NCBI RefSeq assembly: GCF_003999875.1
Contig: NZ_RQVJ01000001.1
Location: 434,001 to 498,000, forward strand
Reading direction: 5' to 3'
DNA from: Veillonella sp. 3310
GTDB taxonomy: Bacteria; Bacillota; Negativicutes; Veillonellales; Veillonellaceae
DNA length: 64,000 nucleotides
In this document: one piece after another, positions 13,840 through 56,983 of the stretch
Numbering within the stretch: the first letter of the stretch is position 1
How the letters are laid out: the number at the start of each line of letters is the position of its first letter
Notes under the pieces: generated by a model
The model's database searches: none
What the model was told of the DNA's origin: nothing
Seen by the model: the letters and a program-made list of their open reading frames with translations, nothing else
Made by a program: the position numbers and the translations under genes

Positions 13840-13869
13840 ATTGTAACATACATTCTATAGAATTGTAAA
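13840..13869 (-). promoter_or_regulatory. Probable lysA promoter
   Basis: On the minus strand TTTACA, an 18-bp spacer, then TACAAT. It implies a 200-nt leader before lysA. I looked for the lysine riboswitch core in that leader and did not see it. Confidence 0.5.
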
Positions 13870-13882
13870 GATTCTATAGAAT
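13852..13882. promoter_or_regulatory. Two identical 12-bp palindromes, likely operator pair
   Basis: ATTCTATAGAAT occurs at 13852-13863 and again at 13871-13882, centres 19 bp apart, about two helical turns. One lies in the spacer of the lysA promoter and the other just upstream of the -35, a layout typical of a repressor binding two sites on one DNA face. Confidence 0.55.
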
Positions 13883-13904
13883 TAAAAACTGTTGAAAGTA
13901 ATCG

Positions 13905-14044
13905 CCTTGTGGCGTTCCTTACTGCATACATTAGATACCCTCAAGAAGAGCACGGTGTGCTCCGAACAAACATTACGTAGTGCCGTTTGTGAGAAGTATA
14001 CCATGCTCTTCCCTTTACTTCTATTCAGATTAGAATACCACAGG
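13905..14044. repeat. Palindromic repeat element, copy 1
   Basis: A 140-bp element. Its outer arms are CCTTGTGGCGTTC and GAATACCACAGG (imperfect), its middle arms AAGAGCACGGT (13946-13956) and ACCATGCTCTT (14000-14010), and its core is a 30-bp block at 13964-13993 with ACAAAC/GTTTGT arms. It lies just after the doxX stop codon. The same architecture and core recur at 14855-14992. Confidence 0.7.
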
Positions 14045-14061
14045 CTACATAGCACAACATG

Positions 14062-14481
14062 TTACTTCCCGAACAGGGAACAATCCACACTATATCGCCC
14101 ACCACCCATAAAGAATATAGCTAATGCAGAAAATCCCATTTGTGACGGATAATCCCAAGCAAAAAATCCTGCATCTACATGAAGAAGCGTAGCCGTAAAT
14201 AAAACTCCAGCCAACAATAAGGATCCTAATCGAGTAAATAATCCAAAGGCAACCAAAGTACCACCTAAGAACTCGCAAATTGCAGCCATCGCACCAAAAA
14301 ATTCGAAATATCCAGGTACTCCTAAGGCTGCCAACATAGCACCTACCTTATATAACCCAGATGCACCGCCTAAAAACTTCAAATATCCATGATAAGCCAT
14401 AGAGATTCCTAAAGCTAATCTCAACACCAATATTCCAAAGTTAACATACGTAGGTTTACCACGCAACAAAAAATGAACCAT
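14062..14481 (-). CDS. DoxX-family membrane protein
   Basis: A 139-residue protein with four predicted membrane segments and the DoxX marks: GILVLRLALGISMAYHGYLKF at the start (a shortened view is RLALGISMAYHG), EFFGAMAAICEFLGGTLVAFG, and FTRLGSLLLAG. DoxX/DoxD-like proteins are linked to thiosulfate:quinone oxidoreductase activity or, in other bacteria, to oxidative-stress membrane complexes; most are uncharacterised. Its neighbour katA and the repeats on both sides hint at an oxidative-stress accessory region. The function is not established. Confidence 0.85.
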   Translation of the reverse strand: MVHFLLRGKPTYVNFGILVLRLALGISMAYHGYLKFLGGASGLYKVGAMLAALGVPGYFEFFGAMAAICEFLGGTLVAFGLFTRLGSLLLAGVLFTATLLHVDAGFFAWDYPSQMGFSALAIFFMGGGRYSVDCSLFGK

Positions 14482-14647
14482 AATTATATCCCTTCCCTAA
14501 ATAAATCTTCCTACAAATAATGAACTAACATACATAAGTATACCATAACATCGTACCACTCTCCTAAGTACAAATCTATTCATAATTCTACACCTTATAT
14601 CATAGTAACAATAGATTAATACAATTGCTACATGCTCTAGAACCAAC

Positions 14648-14920
14648 CTTTGAACGTAGTTGCACATAACAGTCTATGACGTTCCTTTCATCCAAATCAT
14701 ACTAACACAAAAAGACCGCAACATGTTCCCGAACCTTTCTTTGAACGTAGTTGTGTGTAAAAGCCTATGCTGTTCCTTCCAACAAAGTCATGACAATACA
14801 AAAGGAGTGCGACATGTTCCCAAACCTTCCTTTGAACGTAGTTGCGTGTAGAAGCCTATGGTGTTCCTTCCGACAAAGTCATGACAATGCAAAAGGAGTG
14901 CGACATGTTCCCGAACAAAC
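14648..14920. repeat. Three tandem 91-bp repeats
   Basis: The marker CTTTGAACGTAGTTG starts at 14648, 14739 and 14830, an exact 91-bp period. Each unit ends with an ATGTTCCC(g/a)AAC block. Units 2 and 3 are close copies; unit 1 has diverged. The third unit forms the left half of the complete palindrome at 14855-14992. No gene is visible in 14482-15011. Confidence 0.85.
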
Positions 14921-14992
14921 ATTATGAAATACCGTTTGTGAGGGAATGTGTCGCACTCCTACGATTATACTATTTTCAAAGGAACGCCATAG
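14855..14992. repeat. Palindromic repeat element, copy 2
   Basis: A 138-bp element. Outer arms: CTATGGTGTTCC (14856-14867) and GGAACGCCATAG (14981-14992), near-perfect. Middle arms: GGAGTGCGACA (14895-14905) and TGTCGCACTCC (14949-14959), perfect. Inner arms: TTCCC/GGGAA and ACAAAC/GTTTGT. The 30-bp core at 14913-14942 matches the core of copy 1 at most positions. Confidence 0.8.
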
Positions 14993-15011
14993 ACAAATAG
15001 CGCTTCAAGTG

Positions 15012-16481
15012 TTATCCGATGTCAGCAGGTGTAGAGAAATCTACTGTAATTCCCAATGCTTTCGCTACGCCTTCACCATATGCAGGGTCACATGCATAGC
15101 AATGTTTTGCATGGCGTTCTTGGATGAACAATGGAACTCCTGCCATGTTGTTCGCTGTATTTTTGAACAATACTTGTTGTTGTTCTGGAGTCATGAGACG
15201 GAACAATTTACCAGGTTGTGTGTAGTAATCGGAATCATCTTCACGGAAGTCGTATTGGTATGCTTTACCAGATACGTCGTATCCTGGATCTTTGTATTGT
15301 GGTTGGTTAGCCCATTGGCCAAAGCTATTTGGAGCATATCCAATAGTCGCACCATGGTTGCCATCTACACGACCTTGTCCATCACGATGGTAAGAATTGA
15401 ATGGGCATTTAGGCGCATTCACAGGAATGGATGGATAGTTTGTACCTAAGCGGTAACGTTGCGCATCTGCATAGGAGAACAAACGACCTTGTAACATGCG
15501 GTCAGGACTGAATCCAATACCAGGAATGATTGTGGATGGAGCAAACGCTGCTTGTTCTACATCTTGGAAGTAGTTTTCAGGGTTGCGATTCAATTCCATT
15601 ACCCCTACTTCGATTAATGGGAAGTCTTTTTTATACCATACTTTTGTAAGGTCGAATGGGTTATATGGAAGTGCTTCTGCTTGTTCTTCTGTCATCACTT
15701 GGATGTACAATTTCCAACGAGGGAAATCACCTTTAGCGATAGCGTCGAATAAGTCACGTTGTGCACTTTCACGATCATTTGCAATAATCGCAGATGCTTC
15801 TTCTTCAGTTAAGTTTTTAATTGGTTGTTGGCATACCCAGTGGAATTTAACCCATACGCGCTCGTCATTTGCATTGATTAAGCTATATGTGTGGGAACCG
15901 AAACCATGCATATGACGATATCCGTCAGGAATACCACGATCACTCATTACGATAGTAATTTGGTGCATTGCTTCTGGCAAGCTAGTCCAGAAATCCCAGT
16001 TTGCAGTGGCATCACGTAAGTTAGTTTCAGGATTACGTTTTACTGCACGATTCAAGTCTGGGAATTGCAATGGATCGCGAATGAAGAATACTGGTGTGTT
16101 GTTGCCTACTAAATCCCAGTTACCTTCTTCTGTGTACATTTTCACAGCAAAACCACGGATATCTCGTTCTGCATCAGCAGCACCACGTTCGCCAGCTACT
16201 GTGGAAAAACGTACGAACAAATCAGTTTGTTTGCCCACTTCAGAGAACACTTTTGCTTTCGTATATTTTGTAATGTCATTTGTTACTGTGAAAGTACCAA
16301 ACGCACCAGATCCTTTCGCATGCATACGGCGTTCAGGAATCACTTCACGAGCGAAGTGGCCTAACTTTTCCATCAACCACACGTCTTGCATCAATACAGG
16401 ACCACGTTTTCCAGCTGTGGCACTGTTGTTATTGTCAGGCACAGGGGCGCCAAAGGCTGTTGTCAATTTTTCTTCTTTCAT
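15012..16481 (-). CDS. katA: Monofunctional haem catalase
   Basis: A 489-residue clade-3-sized catalase that turns hydrogen peroxide into water and oxygen. The catalytic histidine is H54 in [12 protein letters not shown], the distal asparagine is in [10 protein letters not shown] (about 127-128), and the haem-ligand tyrosine is in [13 protein letters not shown]. The start at 16481 follows a GGAG site six bases upstream; a longer reading has no such site. It has its own consensus promoter and a Fur/PerR-like operator. A catalase in an anaerobe would guard against peroxide made by oral or gut neighbours. Its place beside repeats suggests possible acquisition. Confidence 0.97.
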
Positions 16482-16539
16482 AACTTTCTCCTTTGTAAAC
16501 TTATACATTTATAATAAAATTAAAACCTATAATTATTAC

Positions 16540-56773: not shown

Positions 56774-56977
56774 TTCATACGGCTGACCTGGTCTTTGCCC
56801 CCACACTCGCCTGCTGGAAGGTTCGCTCATAAGCCGTGCTCCCCACTACTACCCCTCTCGACATAGTTTGTCGGCAGGTCTTACATCTAAGCCGCACCAT
56901 GCTCACAATTTCTCATTGCTTATGTGGATCGTTTTGCCTGCGACTGGCCTCGACTTTCAACCACAGACCCGTTATGT
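56738..56977 (-). ncRNA. Candidate structured noncoding RNA of about 240 nt, family not identified
   Basis: A GC-richer island in AT-rich DNA, bounded by a near-consensus promoter (GTGACA, 17 bp, TATAAT) and a perfect intrinsic terminator, with no convincing gene on either strand. Long-range pairings are visible: CATAACGG (56969-56976) with CCGTATG (56776-56782) closes the molecule; GTCGCAGG (56937-56944) pairs with CCTGCCGAC (56870-56878); ACATAAGC (56918-56925) pairs with GCTTAGATGT (56883-56892); CGACA and TGTCG form a local hairpin. I did not find the signatures of SRP RNA, RNase P RNA, tmRNA or a T-box. 6S RNA or a raiA-type RNA are possibilities; the position near comFC and an hpf gene 4 kb away makes the latter worth a test. 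Confidence 0.7.
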
Positions 56978-56983
56978 ACTCTT

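Follow-up and report, generated by a model that had tools for sequence, protein, structure and literature searches.

A family of about 190-bp hairpin-forming repeats at the stop codons of Veillonella genes

Within the window, a stretch of 64,000 nucleotides from the genome of Veillonella sp. 3310, two palindromic elements lie near doxX and katA. The preliminary description of this DNA placed palindromes at 13905-14044 and 14855-14992, and both are present there with a common core (13962-13993 and 14911-14942, 88% identity over 32 nt). The repeated units extend as far as the stop codons of doxX (14062) and katA (15012), and the elements are therefore the 3' UTRs of these two genes. The features of the locus are as follows.

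13885-14061, minus strand (the gene strand): element 1, the doxX 3' UTR (covariance model match 13902-14052, 136 bits; compared with the doxX site of Veillonella sp. VA142)
13904-13918, minus strand: gene-distal outer arm of element 1
13945-14011, minus strand: inner hairpin of element 1, GAAGAGCACGG type, with core ATTACGTAGTGCC
14034-14046, minus strand: gene-proximal outer arm of element 1
14062-14481, minus strand: doxX, host gene of element 1 (Pfam DoxX, E 6e-14)
14627-14899, minus strand: gene-distal half of element 2, as three tandem 91-nt copies (repeat spacing 91 and 91)
14824-15011, minus strand: element 2, the katA 3' UTR, starting directly 3' of the katA stop codon (covariance model match 14851-15001, 126 bits; start read from the sequence)
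14894-14960, minus strand: inner hairpin of element 2, GGAGTGCGAC type, with core ATTATGAAATACC
15012-16508, minus strand: katA, catalase, host gene of element 2 (Pfam Catalase, E 2e-189)

The left end of element 1 is approximate because the gene-distal outer arm is degenerate there, and the tandem half-copy nearest katA overlaps element 2. The core pattern occurs twice in the window and in none of 100 shuffles of it. Folding is much more stable for both elements than for dinucleotide shuffles (z from -3.9 to -9.9), with values of -3.9 and -8.7 for the two folds on the gene strand. Just past element 1, at 13852-13882, the perfect palindrome ATTCTATAGAAT occurs twice with 7 nt between the copies, and it also adjoins the doxX element of VA142. 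Elsewhere in the window, a raiA structured RNA lies on the minus strand at 56774-56978 (strong Rfam match, 191 bits).

These two elements are members of a real palindromic repeat family, as the preliminary description had supposed. The core, searched with up to 3 mismatches, has 34 matches in the genome and none for reversed-pattern controls, which excludes a family of only two copies. A search with a covariance model of 27 copies gave 107 matches on both strands, representing about 61 distinct elements once antisense duplicates are removed. In one place (C4:20089-20791), three copies form a 276-bp tandem array adjoining an ORF. Six genomes of the genus, this one and those of Veillonella sp. 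VA142, 3891, VA137, VA139, and CHU740, have 54 to 92 model matches each at E up to 1e-6, antisense duplicates included; at the same threshold there were none in 22 genomes from three other genera of Veillonellaceae. The exact core had no match in IMG/VR viral contigs, and the family had none in the plasmids and phages searched. Rfam 15 covariance models gave no match at the gathering score and none at E up to 1, and the literature yielded no palindromic repeat family of Veillonella, in keeping with the initial impression that no known family was matched. On these sequence comparisons, the repeats of about 190 bp are a hairpin-forming family that is genus-specific among the sampled genomes and so far undescribed.

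The structure of the unit was analyzed in 42 diverse copies. In it, outer arms flank an inner hairpin of 70 nt whose apex is conserved, and there is also a T-rich tail. Across the 23 pairs of the inner hairpin, 96.8% of cells are paired, against 38-53% in slid controls, and 16 of the pairs have changed on both sides, a number matched in 0 of 500 shuffles. The outer helices (26 pairs) are paired in 74.8% of cells, against 34-46% in slid controls, with double changes at 21 pairs. The proposal that pairing is conserved between copies is borne out by this covariation in both inner and outer helices. The ends of the element pair in part only: helix 1 is 61% paired, and the CGTC at the 5' end of the unit is partly paired. 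At the apex, CAAAC...GTTTG is conserved, as is a mismatch site; the lower stem is variable.

Several features differ between the two strands of the element. Of the 8 nt that follow the stem, at least five are T in 29 of 42 copies, compared with 10 of 42 on the opposite strand and 7% of random 8-mers. The test of strand preference in the inner stem is dominated by fixed positions, and the strand evidence was therefore taken from the variable outer pairs alone; on the gene strand these contain G.U in 98 cells and A.C in 47, which is moderate evidence that the relevant molecule is the gene-strand RNA. In the main stem, pairing is perfect in only 2 of 111 distinct stems, and mismatches on the gene strand are A.C or C.A in 192 cases compared with 23 for G.U, with conservation of the mismatch site. 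These conserved A.C mismatches are not explained by a terminator model. The strong inner hairpin starts about 60 nt past the stop codon, near which only the weaker outer stem lies. A simple terminator scan called neither window element, their stem and loop exceeding the sizes that the scan counts.

Nearly all elements lie at the 3' end of the adjoining gene, and the gene strand is taken here as their reading direction. On it the consensus is TAR, followed by RWCGTCACTTGT..CGCTATGTAGCC TGTGGCG, the inner hairpin, and then CGCCACAAGGCTACTACGC.TAAC.GCGTTCCTCAGG; the unit begins with RWCGTC at its 5' end and finishes at about CCTCAGG. The distance from the stop codon to the edge of the model has a modal value of exactly 16 nt (37 of 202 elements), and 18 of 41 unrelated gene groups include a copy with RWCGTC immediately 3' of the stop codon. 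Intact 5' starts lie directly after stop codons in 23 of 42 cases, and many of the rest are inside older copies. In other elements the stop codon is itself within the repeat, which starts just inside the 3' end of the gene. For example, TyrS ends in IVSC in the genus and in KFN in outgroup genera because the last tyrS codons are supplied by the element. Host genes beyond the window that were confirmed by Pfam include tyrS, pta, and PDDEXK_2 genes. Since the elements are likewise the 3' UTRs of dozens of unrelated genes, the suggestion that they bracket doxX as a pair does not describe a special association; one belongs to doxX and the other to katA. In outgroup genera, the katA genes, pta genes, and two of three tyrS genes are followed either by an ordinary stem plus T-run or by other unrelated sequence. 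An antisense promoter within the repeat was also considered and rejected: by eye, TATAAT-like words occur at some copies only and at no fixed position. Separately, possible type I toxin-antitoxin modules were seen, in which a tiny ORF such as MKKFRKIDILILILKLIVRLIDWFN stands beside a hairpin of the GAGCCTAACG...CGTTAGGC type; they lie downstream of acrB in this genome (L141) and downstream of pta in VA137 and VA142 (L185, L187), and several of the candidate copies adjoin repeat elements.

The sites occupied by the family are shared across the genus. An element follows tyrS, katA, and pta in 6 of 6 genomes and a fourth gene in all 4 genomes where that gene was found, giving 22 of 22 overall. 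More broadly, an element was present in 254 of 259 ortholog comparisons, a biased sample since the loci were picked for holding the core, and the five exceptions are rearranged elements or spurious ORFs. These comparisons revealed no clean empty site in the sampled congeners, and genes that might represent one have no clear ortholog in most of the genomes. The number of copies at a site can vary: the katA 3' UTR holds one full element plus half copies in this genome, three full elements in VA142, and four in VA139.

At these shared sites, the hairpins themselves differ between species. At least two inner hairpin types, drawn from a small repertoire, were found in 14 of 21 ortholog sets, and at tyrS there are several types of lower stem and loop among the six species. 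Where hairpins have been swapped between orthologs, their identity (0.726) is that of random pairs (0.725), whereas the gene-proximal outer arm stays ortholog-like (0.72 vs 0.55); differences between arms are therefore largely block replacements of whole hairpins. Arms of two types are joined in two chimeric hairpins (L131_3049, at C2:221348 of this genome, and L056_1479 in VA139), which suggests exchange with a breakpoint close to the loop. The preliminary description had attributed the paired differences between arms to compensating changes. Pairing is indeed kept, with covariation, but because both arms change together as blocks, point-by-point compensation is not the main source of the differences.

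Evidence for insertion comes from doxX in VA142, where an older element contains a second, complete one of 191 bp (L090 4569-4759), with the junction CCTGTGG/GTCGTC...CTCAGG. The doxX site in the genome studied here has the older element only, un-nested. A comparison of this locus between strains thus revealed an extra nested copy in VA142 but no sampled congener site cleanly without an element. Complete nested units keep the same 5' boundary as units placed after stop codons, and on the sequence of these junctions the nested copies appear as block insertions of a discrete unit, in agreement with the earlier suggestion that the repeats derive from a mobile palindromic unit. Target-site duplications, which would be expected of some such units, were not seen, including at the nested VA142 copy. 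At 86% identity, even the closest match to that copy among the loci compared is too distant to demonstrate recent movement. No match to a Y1_Tnp / RAYT transposase (PF01797) was found in this genome, with positive controls; reverse transcriptases gave none here and a single match in one congener. PDDEXK_2 (Rpn-like) genes are present at 3-7 per genome in all six genomes of the genus and in only 1 of 22 others, and two of the three in this genome are followed directly by an element. These two are paralogs.

C3 205598-206389 and 207204-208007 of this genome (L125): paralogous PDDEXK_2 (Rpn-like) genes, each with elements directly after it

This co-occurrence is a lead only, since the genus is one clade and the co-occurrence therefore counts as a single event, and since dozens of other genes also precede elements. 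A stop-codon-targeting mobile terminator, with hairpin cassettes exchanged by a dedicated process that might involve PDDEXK_2 proteins, is quite unlikely.

Comparison with known systems places the family among the small interspersed palindromic repeats of bacteria, since it differs from the REPs in size and in the absence of a RAYT-type transposase from this genome, and since no target duplications or clear terminal repeats like those of MITEs were seen. SPRITE of Streptococcus pneumoniae is an interspersed repeat whose fold, a long duplex like that of a terminator, precedes a U-rich tract (PMC3049150). Compared by description, the two are alike in their terminator-like fold and T/U-rich tail; the Veillonella unit differs in its length of about 190 bp with outer arms, its register with the stop codon, its inner-hairpin swaps, and its self-nesting. 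REPs are units of 20-40 bp, of which the GTAG type goes with RAYT transposases, and CGTC-tagged REPs exist (PMC3733652, PMC12306157). Many REPs sit within 15-20 nt of stop codons, and in E. coli those at 15 nt or less stall ribosomes (PMC12306157). The Veillonella repeats resemble REPs and BIMEs as high-copy extragenic palindromes near stop codons, and their unit also starts with RWCGTC, but they are about 190 bp rather than 20-40 bp and the genome has no RAYT-type Y1_Tnp. ERIC, RUP, Correia/NEMIS, and other bacterial MITEs are bounded by terminal inverted repeats, and their target duplications are mostly TA (PMC2229807). Like them, the Veillonella elements are about 100-190 bp, strongly palindromic, dispersed, and able to add codons or stops to genes, and as multi-copy units they have a fixed RWCGTC boundary both after stop codons and inside older copies; in contrast, no target duplications or clear terminal repeats have been observed in them. 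Like intrinsic (Rho-independent) terminators, they have at gene 3' ends a stable stem that runs, on the gene strand, into a T-rich tail, and they occupy the position of the ordinary terminators seen at some of the same genes in other genera. They differ in having a much longer, mismatched stem and in belonging to a dispersed homologous family. By analogy, the family would work most like SPRITE and, by place, like the REPs near stop codons.

Different models can be proposed to explain these observations. Purely selfish MITE- or REP-like elements might be tolerated at gene ends because they are harmful elsewhere, with a structure that serves transposition rather than the host. The dispersal of the copies, their fixed 5' boundary, and the nested insertions would fit such elements, which we nevertheless consider unlikely: sites are common to all sampled congeners, copies hug stop codons instead of spreading over intergenic space, the T-tail is asymmetric with G.U favoured on the gene strand, and there is neither a target-site duplication nor a Y1_Tnp in the genome. 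If the repeats were instead regulatory hairpins of the 3' UTR, they would influence translation termination or recycling, or else the apex and the internal A.C mismatches would be bound by a protein. The very short and fixed distance to the stop codon, the conservation of the apex CAAAC...GTTTG and mismatch site while the lower stem varies, and the precedent of REPs (PMC12306157) speak for such a role; with the strong inner hairpin about 60 nt past the stop, a weaker outer stem near it, and no binding protein known, it is nonetheless very unlikely.

Two further models draw on systems of DNA exchange, and both are disfavoured. Recombination sites resembling attC, in an integron-like cassette system, could explain why the palindromes are imperfect, vary in their stems, differ between strands, and come directly after stop codons. 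The elements, however, follow housekeeping genes with synteny conserved in all species, and their orientation is set by each gene and not by an array, making this highly improbable. Inverted DNA-uptake signals serving as terminators, as in Neisseria and Haemophilus, would likewise give hairpins right after stop codons with recurrent arm sequences, but within the 64-kb window arm words hardly occur outside the elements, and they are of many types instead of one short signal; we find this reading barely credible.

Starting from the observed position and structure of the elements, their shared sites, the exchange of hairpins, and the one nested insertion, we consider it likely that an old palindromic insertion family, with copies homogenized by exchange, now provides terminator or stabilizer hairpins in 3' UTRs. 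The unit would have spread by insertion before the species of the genus separated, and some copies would have received further insertions later. Copies may then have been shuffled between near-homologous loci by gene conversion or another recombination process, the hairpins being exchanged through recombination in shared flanks. They may have been kept because the transcribed hairpin and T-rich tail end transcription, protect the 3' end of the mRNA, or both. Judged from structure and position, the elements probably act as transcription terminators.

REP and ERIC repeats are usually viewed as scattered intergenic elements with secondary effects. The Veillonella family is locked to the stop codons of dozens of housekeeping genes across a whole genus, and the replacement of paired stems as blocks at fixed sites is a clear example of concerted evolution in terminator-like hairpins. 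It also serves as a warning that covariation in such repeats can stem from exchange between copies and not from point compensation. In this respect, six species with differing hairpins at one gene provide natural test material.
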